Assembly: GCF_000375485.1 (NCBI RefSeq)
Contig: NZ_AQXE01000014.1
Span: 19,197-80,468, forward strand
Reading direction: 5' to 3'
Length of the DNA: 61,272 nucleotides
Source: Desulfovibrio oxyclinae DSM 11498
Lineage (GTDB): Bacteria > Desulfobacterota > Desulfovibrionia > Desulfovibrionales > Desulfovibrionaceae
Of the stretch, positions 52,713 through 61,272 are shown piece after piece. A model generated the notes under the pieces. The model was not told the DNA's origin and searched no databases. It was given only the letters and a program-made list of their open reading frames with translations. The position numbers were made by a program, and so were the translations under genes. The number at the start of each line of letters is the position of its first letter. Position 1 is the first letter of the stretch.

Positions 52713-52774
52713 GCTTGCTTCCCGAGAGATGGCCCGGACGGACAAAAGCCCCGTTGTCGCCCGGCTGAACCGGA

Positions 52775-52932
52775 AACAGGCTTCGGCAGGTCTTCCGGCT
52801 GCCCCTCCCATCCCGGCCTTCCCGGAACATATTCCAGTGGCTCACTCGGGGACGGGATTCGCGGGGGTCACGGCGGCGGGTCCGCTCCCGATTTTCACGG
52901 GATTCCCTATCAAGTCCTTACGGACACCTGAA
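52775..52932 (-). promoter_or_regulatory. Cobalamin riboswitch
   Basis: The minus strand carries the conserved elements of the cobalamin aptamer in order: AGGTGTCC at the 5' end, GGGAATCCCGTGAAAATCGG, then GAGCGGACCCGCCGCCGTGA, a GAGTGAGCCACTGG arm and the 3' core GGAAGACCTGCC followed by GAAGCC. High adenosylcobalamin should switch off the downstream cobalt/corrinoid operon, probably through the terminator at 52677-52712. Confidence 0.93.
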
Positions 52933-52941
52933 GCGATTTCG

Positions 52942-52970
52942 AATTAAGGAGATTGTGCGGCTGATGTCAA
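52942..52970 (-). promoter_or_regulatory. Sigma-70 promoter of the riboswitch operon
   Basis: TTGACA (complement of 52965-52970) and TTAATT (complement of 52942-52947) are separated by exactly 17 bases. Transcription would start near 52935, a few bases upstream of the riboswitch. The -35 overlaps the stop codon of the CheA-like gene. Confidence 0.75.
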
Positions 52971-55919: not shown

Positions 55920-56510
55920 ATGGTTCGCGAAATCACTGATACGAGAAAAAAGCGCGTGGACGAGGTGCTCGCCAGACGCCAGAAGGACCTGACCCTCGTC
56001 ATGGACAACATCTGGGATCCGCACAACGTTTCGGCCGTGTTGCGCAGCTGCGACGCGTTCGGCGTGAACCGGGTGCATCTTTACTACACCACCGCCAAAT
56101 GGCCAGAGCTGGGCAAGAAGAGTTCGGCCTCCGCCAAGAAATGGGTGGAGCGTGTGCGTCACGAGGACCACGCAGCCATGATCGGCGACATGCGCGAGCA
56201 GGGTTACCAGATCCTGCGCACCGGTTTTTCTCCTACCGCGCGCACGGTGATGGATTTCGACTACACCGGCCCCACGGCAGTGATTCTGAGCAACGAGCAC
56301 CGCGGCACCGCCCCGGAACTTGCAGAACTGGTGCCGGACGAGGTGTACATCCCCATGCAGGGGATGGTGCAGAGCTTCAACGTCTCCGTGGCTGCCGCCC
56401 TTATCCTTTATGAAGCGTTCACGCAGCGTAACGCCAAGGGCATGTACGACAGTCCTTCCTATTCCCCCGAGGAACTGGAGCGATTGCGCAGCGAGTGGTA
56501 CACCCGCTGA
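55920..56510 (+). CDS. trmH: tRNA (guanosine-2'-O-)-methyltransferase TrmH
   Basis: A 196-residue SPOUT-class methyltransferase for Gm18 of tRNA. Motif 1 is DNIWDPHNVSAVLRSCDAFGV, motif 2 is AVILSNEHRGTAPEL, motif 3 is YIPMQGMVQSFNVSVAAAL. Length and the N-terminal DEVLARRQKDLTLVM fit TrmH. The ATG at 55920 is preferred; a TTG at 55884 is possible, and neither has a clear binding site. Divergent from the receiver gene. Confidence 0.9.
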   Translation: MVREITDTRKKRVDEVLARRQKDLTLVMDNIWDPHNVSAVLRSCDAFGVNRVHLYYTTAKWPELGKKSSASAKKWVERVRHEDHAAMIGDMREQGYQILRTGFSPTARTVMDFDYTGPTAVILSNEHRGTAPELAELVPDEVYIPMQGMVQSFNVSVAAALILYEAFTQRNAKGMYDSPSYSPEELERLRSEWYTR

Positions 56511-56573
56511 GTTATCTATAATAGCATCCCGCGGGATAATCCCATTACTTTCGATGCAGGAAGGCGCATCCTC

Positions 56574-57200
56574 ATGAACAGCACGCCCGATCAACTTCAG
56601 GCTGTGGCCGACGCGCTGCGAAACGGCGGGGTTGCCGTGTACCCCACGGAAACCCTTTATGCCATCGGTTGTCGCGGGGACAGCGAGGAAGCCGTCCGGA
56701 ACGTATCCCGCCTCAAGGCGCGGCCGGAAGGAAAGCCGCTGCCGCTTCTGGTGGGAAGCATGGACGGTCTTGAAAAGGTCTGCGGCCCCGCGACCGATGT
56801 GGCGGCTAGGCTCATGAACACTTTCTGGCCCGGTCCGCTGTCCATCCTGGTTCCGGCCGGGGCACACCTCGCTTCCGGAGTCAGCGACGAACGCGGGCTG
56901 ACGTCGGTTCGCTGGACCGCTCATCCTGTAGCGGCTCGGTTGAGCGAGATGGTGGGAGCGCCGCTGGTGGCCACAAGCGCCAATCGCAGCGGTCAGCCCC
57001 CTGCGGCTCTGCCGGAAGAGTTGGACAAGGAGCTTCTGGCTGGAGCGGATGCATTCTACTCCGGACGACCTTACCCGTCCGGTGGCGCGCCTTCCACTGT
57101 GGTGGAAGTTCTGGATGACGGCTCGTTGCGGCTCGTGAGAGTCGGTGCCGTGTCCGGAAGGGCGCTCCTTCAAGAGGGGTTTGCCCTGGAAAGGGAATAG
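56574..57200 (+). CDS. tsaC: Threonylcarbamoyl-AMP synthase (Sua5/YrdC/TsaC family)
   Basis: A 208-residue protein of the tRNA t6A pathway that makes threonylcarbamoyl-AMP from threonine, bicarbonate and ATP. Motifs VYPTETLYAIGC, LKARPEGKPLPLLVG, FWPGPLSILVPA, SVRWTAHPVA and ATSANRSGQ are those of the family. Single-domain form without the Sua5 C-terminal extension. GGAAGG precedes the ATG. It lies 63 bases after trmH and 9 bases before the double-receiver kinase gene. Confidence 0.93.
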   Translation: MNSTPDQLQAVADALRNGGVAVYPTETLYAIGCRGDSEEAVRNVSRLKARPEGKPLPLLVGSMDGLEKVCGPATDVAARLMNTFWPGPLSILVPAGAHLASGVSDERGLTSVRWTAHPVAARLSEMVGAPLVATSANRSGQPPAALPEELDKELLAGADAFYSGRPYPSGGAPSTVVEVLDDGSLRLVRVGAVSGRALLQEGFALERE

Positions 57201-57209
57201 TTACCGTAC

Positions 57210-58697
57210 ATGCGGGAGTGCGCCGTGACCTGCAGCGAGAATCCGCCGATAATACTGGTAGTGGAAGACAGCAAGTCCATCCTTCAGGAGTTGCAGCGCA
57301 GGATTCCTGAAGAGCTCGGATTCACGGTGGAGGCGGCCGCCGATTTCGCTGGGGCCGAGCGGCTTGTGCAGGACAACCCCGAACGCTTTTATTGCGCAGT
57401 TCTCGACCTGAATCTCCCTGATGCGCCTGACGGTGAAATCGTCGATCTGGCACTCAATACGGGAATCCCTGCCGTCGTCTTTACTTCCGGCATGGATGAA
57501 CAACTGCGCCGGACGGTTCTGGATAAAGGCGTTGCCGACTACATTTTCAAGGACTCCAGAGCAGTCTGCAACCTTGTTCGCTCGCTTGGACGGCTGTGGG
57601 CCAATCGCGACTGCAAGGTGTTGGTCTGCGAGGATTCCCGTTCCATGCGCGAACACGTTTCGACCGTACTTCGCAGGCGGATGTTCCAGGTGCTGACAGC
57701 CGCGGACGGCAAGGAAGCGCTGGAAGTGCTGGAACGTGAACCCGGCGTGCGGGTGGTGGTCACGGATTTTGCCATGTCCGGCATGGACGGGCTCAGTCTC
57801 GTGCGAAAGGTCCGGGAGACCCGCAGCAACGAGCAAGTCGCGCTCATAGGTATTTCCTCCAACGATACCGGCCCGCTTTCCGTCTGGTTTCTCAAGGCCG
57901 GGGCCGACGATTTCCTTCGCAAGCCGTTCCTCACTGAAGAGATCATCTGCCGTGTCGAGCAGAACCTTGAGCGCCTTGAGCGGGTTGAAAAACTCAAGGA
58001 TGTGAACGAGTCCCGGCTTCGTTTCCTTGGTTTCGTGGCGCATGACCTGCGCAACCCCATCAACGGTATCAGAGGCTTTGCCAACCTTCTCAAGGGCGAG
58101 CTGACGGATATAGACGGCGAACAGCAGCAGGTGCTGGATATCATCGCCCAGTCCGCCGACAATATGTTGTTGCTGGTGGACGACCTGCTGGGCGTTTCCG
58201 CCATTCAGTCTGGCAAGCTGGAGTTGCGGCCCGCGGTCACGGACCTGCGATCCGTAGTGCGTGACAGGGTTACGGCCAACAAGCTCATGGCCAAGCGCAA
58301 AAGCATTGGGATTGATCAGGATCTCGAAGAACTTCCCCTTGTCTCTGTGGACGCCGCCCGCATCGGGCAGGTGCTGGACAACCTGCTGTCCAATGCCATC
58401 AAGTTTTCCATGCCGGGCACGACGATTTCCGTGAGGCTGGCCCGTTCGGAAGAGGATATTCTGCTTTCCGTTTGCGATCAGGGGCCCGGGATAGATCCGG
58501 AAGAGCAGGGAAGGCTTTTCCAAGATTATCACAAGGGCAAGGCCGCCCCGACCGGCGGCGAATCCAGCACGGGACTCGGGCTGTTTATCGTTCAGAGTGT
58601 CATCAAGGCACACGGCGGAAGCATCGATGTGGCGTCTGAAAAGGGGGCCGGGGCATGTTTTCATGTTCGGCTGCCGTTCACGCCTGTAGAGGAGTAG
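57210..58697 (+). CDS. Histidine kinase with two N-terminal receivers
   Basis: A 495-residue cytoplasmic protein. Receiver 1 (about 13-125) has LVVEDSKS, LDLNLPD, FTSG and a Lys (DYIFKD). Receiver 2 (about 134-255) has LVCEDSRS, VTDFAMSGMDG and FLRKPF. After a short coiled coil, the kinase core has the H-box FVAHDLRNPINGIRG, N-box NLLSNAIKF, DQGPGIDPEE and GLGLFIVQ. No sensor or membrane segment is present, so input probably comes through phosphorylation of the receivers. A GTG at 57225 with GGGAG upstream is an equally good start. It shares a transcript with tsaC. Confidence 0.9.
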   Translation: MRECAVTCSENPPIILVVEDSKSILQELQRRIPEELGFTVEAAADFAGAERLVQDNPERFYCAVLDLNLPDAPDGEIVDLALNTGIPAVVFTSGMDEQLRRTVLDKGVADYIFKDSRAVCNLVRSLGRLWANRDCKVLVCEDSRSMREHVSTVLRRRMFQVLTAADGKEALEVLEREPGVRVVVTDFAMSGMDGLSLVRKVRETRSNEQVALIGISSNDTGPLSVWFLKAGADDFLRKPFLTEEIICRVEQNLERLERVEKLKDVNESRLRFLGFVAHDLRNPINGIRGFANLLKGELTDIDGEQQQVLDIIAQSADNMLLLVDDLLGVSAIQSGKLELRPAVTDLRSVVRDRVTANKLMAKRKSIGIDQDLEELPLVSVDAARIGQVLDNLLSNAIKFSMPGTTISVRLARSEEDILLSVCDQGPGIDPEEQGRLFQDYHKGKAAPTGGESSTGLGLFIVQSVIKAHGGSIDVASEKGAGACFHVRLPFTPVEE

Positions 58698-58862
58698 AGT
58701 TTTTTGAACCCCGATGTGGCGGATATGGCCGTTTCTACGGAACCCTGTTCAATAATTTTTACTGGTAGCCCCCGTGGGTTACCCCGGGGTTGATGGCAGA
58801 CGGTTTGTTAACATCCTGATTTTGATGTGATAAATTTTTTTTGAAAGGGTTTGTGTCTGATT

Positions 58863-58878
58863 TGGCACGGCGGTTGCT
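58863..58878 (+). promoter_or_regulatory. Sigma-54 (RpoN) promoter
   Basis: TGGCACG-GCGG-TTGCT matches the -24/-12 consensus at every conserved base, with GG and GC separated by exactly 10 bases. Transcription would start near 58889. The upstream 60 bases are AT-rich, suitable for an activator-bent region. Confidence 0.78.
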
Positions 58879-58888
58879 CTAATCTTTT

Positions 58889-58954
58889 TACCTTCTTTCT
58901 TTTGCTAATGGTTTACGAAAACGGCTCTCCGGGACGGTCCCGGGGAGCTTTTTT
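58889..58954 (+). ncRNA. Candidate RpoN-driven small RNA, about 65 nt
   Basis: Between the sigma-54 promoter and an intrinsic terminator lies a short stretch with no good gene. The predicted RNA has a pyrimidine-rich single-stranded 5' part (TTTTTACCTTCTTTCTTTT) that could pair with purine-rich ribosome binding sites, followed by the terminator hairpin. The start is estimated from the promoter; no expression data are available. Confidence 0.45.
58924..58954 (+). terminator. Strong intrinsic terminator
   Basis: GCTCTCCGGG pairs with CCCGGGGAGC (ten base pairs, one G-U) around a 5-nt loop and is followed directly by TTTTTT. It lies about 46 bases after the sigma-54 promoter and 80 bases before the NUDIX gene start. 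Confidence 0.88.
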
Positions 58955-59035
58955 CGTTGCATGGGCTGGACAGGCGGAAGCCGGTCGGCAACAATCAAGT
59001 GTATTCTCATGAATCGGCAGCAAAAGGAGAGAGAC

Positions 59036-59506
59036 TTGAAGACCAAACCTTGTCCCGAATGTGGCGCTGACGTTCCCATCTACCGTAATCCCGTCCCCAC
59101 TGTGGATGTTGCTGTGCTCGTGCCCTCACAAGACAGAGGCGTGCCGGGCGTGGTGCTGGTGGAGCGGGCCAATCCGCCACATGGCTGGGCGCTGCCCGGC
59201 GGTTTCATCGATTACGGCGAGCCCTGCGAGGCGGCTGCCGTACGCGAACTGGAAGAAGAGACCGGCCTCAAAGCAACGCTGACAGGAATCCTCGGTGTCT
59301 ATTCCGATCCCTCCCGCGATCCGCGAATGCATACCATGAGCGTGGTCTATACCGCTGTGGCGGATCTGACCGATCTTCAGGCCGGAGACGATGCAGCCAA
59401 TGCGCGTGTCTTCCCGCTGGACAAACTGCCGGCTCTTGCCTTCGACCATCCTGAAATCCTTGCTGATCTGCGTGCAGTGCTGGACAAGGCCAATCCGGGC
59501 CGCTAA
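59036..59506 (+). CDS. NUDIX hydrolase
   Basis: A 156-residue pyrophosphohydrolase. The Nudix box is complete (GGFIDYGEPCEAAAVRELEE then ETGL). The N-terminus has a CPECG Cys pair, found in NUDIX proteins with a small zinc ribbon, though a second pair is not seen. The region after the box (YSDPSRDPRMHTMSVVY) suggests an ADP-ribose pyrophosphatase-like substrate, which is tentative. A TTG start at 59036 is chosen because AAAGGAG lies seven bases upstream; ATG at 59009 is the alternative. pdxA follows after 25 bases. Confidence 0.87.
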   Translation: MKTKPCPECGADVPIYRNPVPTVDVAVLVPSQDRGVPGVVLVERANPPHGWALPGGFIDYGEPCEAAAVRELEEETGLKATLTGILGVYSDPSRDPRMHTMSVVYTAVADLTDLQAGDDAANARVFPLDKLPALAFDHPEILADLRAVLDKANPGR

Positions 59507-59531
59507 TGTTTTTCGAAAGGATGGCCCAACC

Positions 59532-60530
59532 ATGGATGAAAAGACGCTCTGCATTACCCTTGGAGACCCCTGCGGCCTCGGCCCCGAGCTGGTGGTGCGG
59601 TATTTCGCCGACCCCCGTGAAGGGAAATACCTGCTCATCGGTCCGGTCGCAGCTCTAGAACGGGAGCTTGAGCGGGCTGGGAGTCCTTCGTTTTTCACCA
59701 AAATCAACGATCCCGATGAGCTGGATGGACTTCCTGGTGGAGTATATATTTTTGAACCGCCGGAGCTGTCGCGGCTGGGCTTCCCGGCAGGTTGCCAGAC
59801 CGTGGAGGGCGGGCTTGCAGCTGGTGTGAGTCTTGAGAAGGCCGTGGAGTTGCTTCGCAATGGGACCGTACATGGCTTGACGACCTGCCCGCTGAACAAG
59901 GCCATGCTGCAACAGGCCGGGTTCGAATTTCCCGGCCATACAGAATTTCTTGCAGAACGGCTCGGCGTGGGGCGCGAGGGCGTGTGCATGCATCTGTGCG
60001 GAGAAAACGAAGACGGCTCCAATGCGCTGCGGGTCAGCCTCGTGACGACGCATCCACCCCTCTCCGAAGTACCGCGACTCGTGACCCGCGAGCGCATCCG
60101 GCATTGTCTGAATCTCACCGCCGATTTTCTGAAACGCCTCGGCAAGAGCGGAACCATCGGCGTCTGCGGTCTCAATCCGCACGCAGGGGAGTCAGGCCGC
60201 ATCGGCCACGAAGATCAGGACACCGTCGAACCCGCTGTCGTCGAAGCAAGGCGCGCCGGAATCGACTGCGAAGGCCCTATCCCGGCGGACACGCTTTTCC
60301 ATTTCGCCGCAGCCGGACGCCATCACGCCGTGCTCGCCATGTATCACGATCAGGGCCTTGCTCCGCTGAAGCTCCTGCACTTCGGCAAAGCGGTCAATGT
60401 AACGCTCGGCCTGCCGTATCCGCGCACCTCGCCCGATCACGGAACCGGTTACGACCTCTGCGGAACCGGAACCGCCTGCGTACACAGCTTCGCCAAGGCC
60501 GTGGAACTCGCCCGGAAGATGATGGCCTAG
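59532..60530 (+). CDS. pdxA: 4-hydroxythreonine-4-phosphate dehydrogenase
   Basis: A 332-residue enzyme of pyridoxal phosphate synthesis (DXP-dependent route). The family motifs are present: ITLGDPCGLGPEL, TTCPLNKAMLQQAGFEFPGHTEFLA with a metal-site His, GLNPHAGESGRIG, GPIPADTLFHFA, AMYHDQGLAPLK and TSPDHGTGYD. The usual GDPAGIGPE is GDPCGLGPE here. ATG at 59532 with AAAGGA upstream. It sits between the NUDIX gene and gmhB. Confidence 0.94.
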   Translation: MDEKTLCITLGDPCGLGPELVVRYFADPREGKYLLIGPVAALERELERAGSPSFFTKINDPDELDGLPGGVYIFEPPELSRLGFPAGCQTVEGGLAAGVSLEKAVELLRNGTVHGLTTCPLNKAMLQQAGFEFPGHTEFLAERLGVGREGVCMHLCGENEDGSNALRVSLVTTHPPLSEVPRLVTRERIRHCLNLTADFLKRLGKSGTIGVCGLNPHAGESGRIGHEDQDTVEPAVVEARRAGIDCEGPIPADTLFHFAAAGRHHAVLAMYHDQGLAPLKLLHFGKAVNVTLGLPYPRTSPDHGTGYDLCGTGTACVHSFAKAVELARKMMA

Positions 60531-60579
60531 CCGATACAACCCACAACGACCCCACCGGATCCACTCCCAAGGAGGGCGC

Positions 60580-61116
60580 ATGAACAGGTACATCCTTCTC
60601 GATCGCGACGGCACCGTTATTCACGACAGGCATTATCTCAAGGACCCGGAAGAAGTGGAACTGCTGCCAGGTGCTGCCGAAGGTCTGCGCAAACTGCGCC
60701 GAATCGGATACCGGCTCGCCATCCTCACCAATCAGAGCGGCGTCGGCAGAGGCTATTACACCGAAGACGAGGTCCGAGCCTGCAACCGCAGACTCGAAGA
60801 GCTCCTGCGAAAGGAAGGCGTGGTCATAGACGCCACCCTGCACTGCCCCCACGCTCCGGAAGACAACTGCGACTGTCGCAAGCCCGCCCCCGGACTCATG
60901 TATCAGGCCGCGGAAGAGCTCGGCTTCGACCCGGAAAAAGCGTGGATGATAGGCGACAAATACGCCGACATCCGCCTCGGAGCCGACACCGGCGCAACCC
61001 CGGTCCTGGTACGAACAGGCAAGGGAGCAAAGGAAGAAGCCCGCTGCTCAGACCTTGCCCGATATGTCGTGGACAATCTCAAGGAAGCCGCCGACCGGAT
61101 AGCGGAGACCGACTGA
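60580..61116 (+). CDS. gmhB: D-glycero-D-manno-heptose-1,7-bisphosphate 7-phosphatase
   Basis: A 178-residue HAD-superfamily phosphatase for the ADP-heptose branch of lipopolysaccharide core synthesis. D8 and D10 (LLDRDGTV), the LTNQSGVGRGYY loop, zinc ligands C89, H91, C97 and C99 (CPHAPEDNCDC), and MIGDKYADIRLG are all typical. It follows pdxA by 49 bases, with AAGGAGG before the ATG. A histidinol phosphatase-type role is less likely because of the zinc loop and length. Confidence 0.92.
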   Translation: MNRYILLDRDGTVIHDRHYLKDPEEVELLPGAAEGLRKLRRIGYRLAILTNQSGVGRGYYTEDEVRACNRRLEELLRKEGVVIDATLHCPHAPEDNCDCRKPAPGLMYQAAEELGFDPEKAWMIGDKYADIRLGADTGATPVLVRTGKGAKEEARCSDLARYVVDNLKEAADRIAETD

Positions 61117-61157
61117 GTCGGTATGCCTCCGGCGGCTCTCCGAGGGCCCTCCGGGGG

Positions 61158-61189
61158 CTTAAGAACCCTTTTGCAAAAGGGTTCTTAAG
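61158..61189. terminator. Long perfect inverted repeat after gmhB
   Basis: CTTAAGAACCCTTTT and its exact complement form a 15-bp stem with a 2-nt loop. It is preceded by CTCCGGCGGCTCTCCGAGGGCCCTCCGG, the kind of sequence often found at gene ends in Desulfovibrio. No T-run follows the stem, but A-rich and T-rich arms could end transcription in either direction. Confidence 0.6.
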
Positions 61190-61272
61190 AATCTCCCAAA
61201 AACATTTGTGTTGCCAAGCCGCACGAGGCTTTCCGAAAGCTGAGGCGTATAGGCGGCTTGGCGGGAGGCTGA

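Follow-up and report, generated by a model that had tools for sequence, protein, structure and literature searches.

The window analysed here, a stretch of 61,272 nucleotides from Desulfovibrio oxyclinae DSM 11498, holds what appears, judging from its sequence and its relatives, to be a member of an unnamed small RNA (sRNA) family of Desulfovibrionales, one without an Rfam match and apparently switched on by sigma-54. Comparison supports the view that this sRNA does not stand alone: its genome has three copies, and the family they belong to extends over the order and is complementary to a porin leader. The most probable job of the family is to silence the major porin, and the reading that we hold with good confidence is that an enhancer-binding protein switches on sRNAs that would block porin translation.

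The features on which the argument draws are as follows (window coordinates).

57210..58697, + strand: upstream neighbor, a REC-REC-HisKA-HATPase hybrid kinase gene (Pfam); synteny varies.
58692..58711, no strand: candidate UAS (enhancer) palindrome GAGTAGAGTTTTTTGAACCC, placed 171 bp ahead of the -24 box; best motif match in the window, 18.7 bits.
58745..58764, no strand: second candidate UAS CTGTTCAATAATTTTTACTG, placed 118 bp ahead of the -24 box; second-best match in the window, 13.9 bits.
58863..58878, + strand: sigma-54 promoter TGGCACGGCGGTTGCT (-24/-12), the only exact match in the window and conserved in the family.
58888..58905, + strand: 5′ seed TTACCTTCTTTCTTTTGC, complementary to the porin mRNA at its Shine-Dalgarno region (-29.9 kcal/mol by RNAduplex, computed against the porin leader of the same genome).
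58889..58954, + strand: predicted small RNA of ~65 nt, from sequence anatomy and covariance-model matches.
58923..58954, + strand: intrinsic terminator, a 12-pair hairpin plus six T, from sequence and from a consensus hairpin in 22 sequences taken as orthologues.
59009..59506, + strand: downstream neighbor, a NUDIX hydrolase gene, then pdxA (Pfam); synteny markers only.

Promoter and anatomy of the window sRNA

A sigma-54-driven small RNA had been proposed for this site by a sequence-only reading, starting from an RpoN box with 10 bases between GG and GC. We find the same box, with GG at 58864-65 and GC at 58876-77 of TGGCACGGCGGTTGCT, and the pattern TGGCACN5TTGCW has this single match at 0 mismatches in the 61,272 bases scanned. 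When up to 2 mismatches are allowed, 20 matches are found in the window vs. 31 in shuffled sequence, so such loose matches can be put down to chance. A weak sigma-70-like match (9 of 12), with TG before the -10, lies upstream of the sigma-54 box at 58808-58836.

The RNA start at 58889 was placed 12 nt past the C of the -12 element, and the end was placed in the T run. The predicted 5′ end reads UACCUUCUUUCUUUUGC; the seed 15-mer, CCTTCTTTCTTTTGC, covers 58891-58905, and the first base of the longer seed TTACCTTCTTTCTTTTGC may precede the RNA start. When the modelled RNA (58890 on) is folded alone, its first ten bases stay unpaired, followed by a weak stem and the terminator. The terminator hairpin, which had also been read earlier as strong and as followed by six T, spans 58923-58949 with 12 pairs, 8 of them GC, and the six T are 58949-58954. 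It has the highest pair count among 7 terminator-like sites in 56000-61272 (shuffles give a mean of 5.0 sites). As the same reading had it, the only frame inside, from an ATG at 58908, runs through the terminator. At the Rfam gathering threshold the window sRNA was unmatched, and a search of 16 family loci returned two tRNAs and no sRNA family. The only Rfam match in the window is a cobalamin riboswitch aptamer at 52768-52947 on the minus strand (100.4 bits). The promoter and its conservation are read directly from the DNA; we infer that the RNA is made.

A family spread over the order

Similar stretches were found by blastn in the same genome and in relatives. With a 331-base region as the query against 60 relatives the output was mostly noise, 53 of the 60 giving some match at E <=1, and among the matches inspected the informative ones were those over the RNA itself. 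The 15-mer pattern, with at most one mismatch, has matches in 24 of the 36 genomes of the genus; those with a sigma-54 box also carry the hairpin (by eye), and more than half of the one-mismatch matches listed are without an upstream sigma-54 box and were dropped. A covariance model built from 8 genus sequences (R1) matched all 36 genus genomes at E <=0.5, the best match per genome having E <=3.1e-6. The better R1 matches alone yield 94 candidate genes with a sigma-54 box and a C/U-rich seed, one to five in each of the 36 genomes and at least two in 34 of them among the loci fetched; one match in this count, on C2 of the own genome, we place outside the family.

A broader model (R2), made from 32 sequences, has only 3 base pairs and is in effect a sequence profile. 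Among 199 genomes of the order, representing 43 genera, it matched 166, from 36 genera, at E <=0.001. The window sRNA itself, which was used in training both models, scores 4.3e-19 with R1 and 1.1e-21 with R2. When 395 genomes were drawn from the phylum, 19 were matched by R2 at E <=0.0001, 16 of them in the taxonomic family of the window (own genome included); the three outside it are weak, with E from 2e-5 to 9e-5. Named records with members include Salidesulfovibrio brasiliensis and Pseudodesulfovibrio, Nitratidesulfovibrio, Humidesulfovibrio and Desulfovibrio species. Two loci (G019:C1:746991-747826 and G137:C44:5393-6241) have three tandem copies each at ~320-420 bp spacing, which look as if they were locally amplified. 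A pattern search of wider sequence records returned 115 stretches, many of them in Flavobacteria and other unrelated groups; seven that were printed are without the family anatomy by eye, two (L249 and L293) are ambiguous by eye, and the remaining ones from unrelated groups were dropped uninspected.

The sequence-only reading had suggested looking for the promoter, the hairpin and their spacing in relatives, with a lack of conservation counting against it; all three are conserved. Since the promoter, the 5′ pyrimidine stretch, the hairpin and the spacing recur in relatives, more than chance must be at work. In an alignment of 22 sequences taken as orthologues, the synteny of only a few of them having been inspected, there is one hairpin, in which both partners have changed in 4 of the 17 pairs and most others hardly vary. 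Many of these orthologues have only TTTCTCG after the stem, i.e., a poor T run, which counts against a simple terminator reading, and a strict terminator filter kept 61 candidate genes and rejected the others.

Two other explanations of the window locus bear on this family evidence. The first, a chance sigma-54-like box beside the terminator of the kinase gene, could appeal to the chance level of loose matches in the window; the box, seed, hairpin, spacing and palindromes nevertheless recur across genus and order, and we give it next to no weight. The second would take the site as a sigma-54 promoter and attenuator of a NUDIX-pdxA operon, the leader not being an independent RNA. It lies ahead of the NUDIX gene on the same strand, 54 bp from one candidate start (59009 ATG) and 81 bp from the other (59036 TTG), yet the family occurs at several unrelated loci, where the 5′ seed and hairpin are conserved and the neighbor is not, and this makes the attenuator very improbable. 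Occurrence at unrelated loci is the ground on which both were rejected in favor of a separate sRNA gene.

Complementarity to the leader of the major porin

A search of the own genome with the 15-mer at no more than one mismatch returned three sites: the sRNAs on C14 (the window copy) and C12 and, in antisense, the Shine-Dalgarno sequence of a porin gene on C1. The target prediction suggested earlier for the pyrimidine-rich part of the RNA leads to a porin Shine-Dalgarno region, and comparative evidence supports the proposal of a sigma-54 small RNA with an anti-Shine-Dalgarno 5′ end. The gene on C1 encodes an outer-membrane homotrimeric porin (NCBIfam NF033939, E 3.2e-148), which shares 37 percent identity with a porin from Nitratidesulfovibrio that falls under this model too. 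DVU0799 is described as the major, homotrimeric porin of D. vulgaris in the available part of its report (PMC5686591), and from name, trimer and length we take the own porin to belong to the DVU0799 family.

A protein search found the porin in 34 of the 36 genus genomes, and 37 porin leaders were collected from 35 genomes, with none from G014. In all 37, GCAAA stands ahead of an AAGGAAG-type Shine-Dalgarno that closely precedes the start, and the best sRNA of the same genome is predicted to pair over the Shine-Dalgarno region. Many leaders have a second upstream pairing block, e.g., ACTTGG with CCGAG. The leader pattern gave 68 matches in the 36 genomes vs. 12 for a reversed control; sRNA genes read backwards are among the matches. 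Outside the genus it occurs in 17 of 21 further genomes, which were taken via named sRNA loci; in 12 of the 21 it precedes a porin-like gene (N-terminus judged by eye; two were tested and both are NF033939), and a porin-like match was not found in the other nine. A conserved GTTAAGGCGTTAACTTGG-like element, about -60 to -25 from the start codon, is present in L058 and other porin leaders; sRNA pairing accounts for only part of this element upstream of the Shine-Dalgarno.

With the own porin leader, the C12 copy has a predicted energy of -46.3 kcal/mol (29 pairs with one interruption), the C5 copy -31.5 and the window copy -29.9, the weakest porin pairing of the three members. The match on C2 (270293-270398, minus strand), where a sigma-54-like box is followed by CCTTCATCCTCCCCCC and a hairpin with a T run, pairs poorly (-14.8) and is without the palindrome described below; it may represent another kind of sigma-54 small RNA.

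One alternative is that the sigma-54 small RNA is real and has broad anti-Shine-Dalgarno targets, of which the porin would be just one. The seed is C/U-rich, any such RNA can pair with a purine-rich Shine-Dalgarno, the copies are not alike beyond the seed, and the extended match of the C12 copy is missing from the window copy. With seeds of the same length, the porin values are -46.3 (C12), -31.2 (C5) and -27.6 (window copy), and a few other starts reach -27 to -32 kcal/mol, the best non-porin values being -31.7, -27.2 and -27.0 over 911 sampled starts (355 genes, 492,976 own bases). The scan itself missed the porin, probably because at most three starts were taken per open frame, and the porin energies were computed separately. 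On these figures the porin ranks first for all three sRNAs over the 911 starts, narrowly for the window copy, and mononucleotide shuffling of the window seed (1000 rounds) gave values down to -29.3. Against broad targeting stand the three-site outcome of the genome-wide 15-mer search, co-variation that tracks the porin, and a palindrome that, in the 516 kb sampled, marks the sRNAs and the porin and, save for one pdxA site, nothing else. We consider broad targeting unlikely, and the major porin remains the preferred target.

Co-variation of sRNA and porin

The pairing partners fall into two lineage-specific classes. In class i (six genomes) the mRNA has GCAAAAGAAGGAAGG with CCTTCTTTCTTTTGC or a variant in the sRNA, and in class ii (the other genomes) the mRNA has GCAAAAAAAGGAAGA with TCTTCCTTTTTTTGC or variants. 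Flanking positions change together as well, AATTGC with GCAATT and AATCGC with GCGATT, and in G003, G004 and G016 six A stand opposite six T. The class-i flanking pair is A-T in G000, G009 and the second G017 pair, and G-C in G015, G017, G021 and G024. Class-i porins have a mean energy of -35.1 with class-i sRNAs vs. -25.4 with class-ii sRNAs; class-ii porins hardly discriminate (-24.4 and -25.7).

The mean best own-genome energy is -29.13, vs. -25.78 (sd 0.44) with genome labels permuted, and 0 of 5000 permutations were as low, kinship being left in. Kinship is equally left in within the classes, where 6 of 5000 permutations inside the 29 class-ii genomes reach the observed mean and 2 of 720 orderings inside the six class-i genomes are as good, the true one included. 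A partner-shuffling test favors the observed pairing because its sRNA is preselected for the own porin, and the label permutation is free of that bias. In six class-ii genomes (G005, G025, G026, G029, G034 and G035), 43 to 75 percent of foreign sRNAs pair equally well or better. The two porins of G017 in the set have different own sRNAs as their best partners, which suggests that sRNA and porin were co-duplicated there. The porin genes of this genome lie side by side (G017:C1:906500-913200). Complementarity and its co-variation are features of the sequences themselves; that the pairing represses is the step we infer from them.

A palindrome shared by sRNA and porin genes

An EM script run on the 94 sRNA upstream regions, window copy included, learned a palindrome of about GTTAAAAATTTTGTAC. 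These regions were both training and scored sequences, and the porins and other records stood outside the training. The palindrome is present in 90 of the 94 training regions. Of the 94, 71 have their best site 110-121 bp ahead of the -24 box and 19 have it 140-175 bp ahead, and 62 have sites of at least 10 bits in both zones. In the window, the histidine kinase gene overlaps the distal site GAGTAGAGTTTTTTGAACCC with its 3′ end. A third match (13.0 bits), at 59740-59759 inside pdxA, may be chance or an intragenic site, and the fourth match in the window has 4.2 bits.

Beyond the training set, the palindrome reaches at least 10 bits in 30 of 36 upstream regions of other records, most of which have Desulfovibrio or Nitratidesulfovibrio in their titles (shuffles 0.08), and at least 12 bits upstream of 37 of 37 genus porin genes (shuffles 0.22). 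At the porin genes, a sigma-70-like promoter recognized by eye follows it. Some Nitratidesulfovibrio porins (L374-L376 and L383) are without it. In 515,775 bases of the own genome, partly chosen around these loci, eight matches reach 12 bits: two at the porin, five at the three sRNAs and one in pdxA. Sigma-54 promoters require an enhancer-binding protein (EBP), and the common palindrome is therefore its likely site, as a candidate. A search for the activator through EBP genes near the sRNAs gave no consistent partner: seven fetched loci, some in unrelated bacteria, have an EBP-like motif, six of them with an sRNA-like match.

Proposed mechanism

A sigma-54 enhancer-binding protein bound to the palindromes ~118 and ~171 bp upstream would switch on the ~65-nt RNA, whose unstructured 5′ end would pair with the leader of the mRNA for the major homotrimeric porin. 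The duplex would cover the Shine-Dalgarno and block porin translation. The three sRNAs (C14, C12 and C5) would act on one porin gene (C1), as a multi-copy brake without Hfq or ProQ. Profile searches of 37 genomes of the order, in which a diverged protein could be missed, found neither Hfq (PF17209) nor ProQ (PF04352) in any of them; Hfq matched 5 of 14 controls (E. coli and four others), and ProQ matched E. coli.

The opposite effect, in which the RNA pairs with the porin leader and activates or stabilises the message, would draw on the predicted pairing of the window copy, which extends from -48 to -3, about the whole leader as we place it, and could protect it. A Shine-Dalgarno inside a duplex normally blocks ribosome binding, and it lies inside the predicted duplex in 37 of 37 cases; activation is thus quite improbable, and repression of the porin is the outcome we favor.

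The elements could also form a closed circuit, for and against which we give equal weight. One dedicated sigma-54 activator would bind the same palindrome at the major porin gene and at one to five sigma-54 sRNA genes, whose chief role would be that of the porin's own translational brake. At the porin, which has a sigma-70-like promoter, the site is placed as expected for an activator or a distant repressor. The result would be a controller of outer-membrane permeability across Desulfovibrionales without Hfq/ProQ. Its duplexes would be long (about 18-29 bp in this genome), and paralogues of sRNA and porin would duplicate together in matching pairs, as G017 suggests.

Relation to known systems

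The Qrr small RNAs of Vibrio have a sigma-54 promoter, several near-redundant copies, a conserved pairing stretch and an intrinsic terminator, and their targets are quorum-sensing mRNAs. The present sRNAs resemble them in a sigma-54 promoter (by sequence), three copies with a common pairing stretch (C14, C12 and C5) and an intrinsic terminator. They differ in that the likely target is a porin leader, the pairing stretch is at the very 5′ end and there is no Rfam match; Hfq dependence, too, finds no counterpart in the PF17209 search (0 of 37 genomes). MicF, MicC and RybB are trans-encoded sRNAs that silence porins by pairing at the translation start region of the mRNA. Predicted pairing with the ribosome-binding region of a porin mRNA (37 of 37 leaders, in silico) is shared with these, whereas the sigma-54 promoter, the multiple copies, the lack of an Rfam match and the outcome of the Hfq and ProQ searches set the present family apart.

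NcS25 of Burkholderia is, in the available part of its report, a conserved sRNA that pairs with the Shine-Dalgarno region of a porin mRNA, and its authors found no upstream sigma-54 motif (PMC10117139). As far as that text goes, the likeness is that of a conserved sRNA on a porin Shine-Dalgarno; porin and sequence differ, and a sigma-54 box is present here.

Within the sulfate reducers, the response regulator DVU0679 is reported to target Dv_sRNA2, of unknown function (Rajeev 2011; PMC3333781), and 4 non-coding RNAs are listed in the sigma-54 regulome of D. vulgaris (Kazakov 2015; PMC4641369). The available parts of these two articles describe short intergenic RNAs of the same order under sigma-54 regulation by response regulators or one-component EBPs, as would apply here, and they give no sequence family, target or porin link; the word "porin" has 0 occurrences in their main texts. 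Some of these RNAs may belong to the family of the window sRNA. The sequence-only reading would have regarded a sigma-54 sRNA between a phosphorelay kinase and cofactor genes of a sulfate reducer as new. The proposed sRNA stands; as a class, however, sigma-54-controlled non-coding RNAs of Desulfovibrio have precedents in the listed D. vulgaris cases (PMC3333781, PMC4641369). A title and abstract search of the literature gave no porin-directed sRNA of Desulfovibrio among the matches listed.

The family would give sigma-54 RNAs of sulfate reducers, listed without a target in the available parts of those reports, a concrete and testable target and mechanism, and would tie sigma-54 to the control of the main solute pore. 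The major porin prefers anions, and its discoverers relate this preference to sulfate uptake in the available part of their article (PMC5686591). The family may also serve as a natural system for trans-acting sRNAs in a Gram-negative order where profile searches did not find Hfq or ProQ, and its dozens of RNA-target pairs would allow pairing rules to be tested.

Genomic setting of the window copy

The genes of the window were named by Pfam and those at other loci by likeness. By eye, the order in G025 (L070) is SpoU methylase, Sua5, sRNA, NUDIX, pdxA and HAD, and in G021 (L105) it is SpoU, kinase, sRNA, NUDIX, pdxA and HAD; a gene similar to the upstream kinase thus adjoins the sRNA at L105, and there is none at L070. 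In G024 (L106), pdxA and HAD are called beside the sRNA, and Sua5 and pdxA are seen by eye at an sRNA locus of another genus (L280). Judged by eye from gene order, the window copy appears to share its setting with these four loci. Within 59009-59040, the leader of the NUDIX gene, if translation starts at 59036, reads GCAAAAGGAGAGAG. Of the 911 sampled starts, this non-porin site gives the C5 sRNA its lowest energy (-27.2), and this NUDIX leader is a possible second target beside the window sRNA gene.
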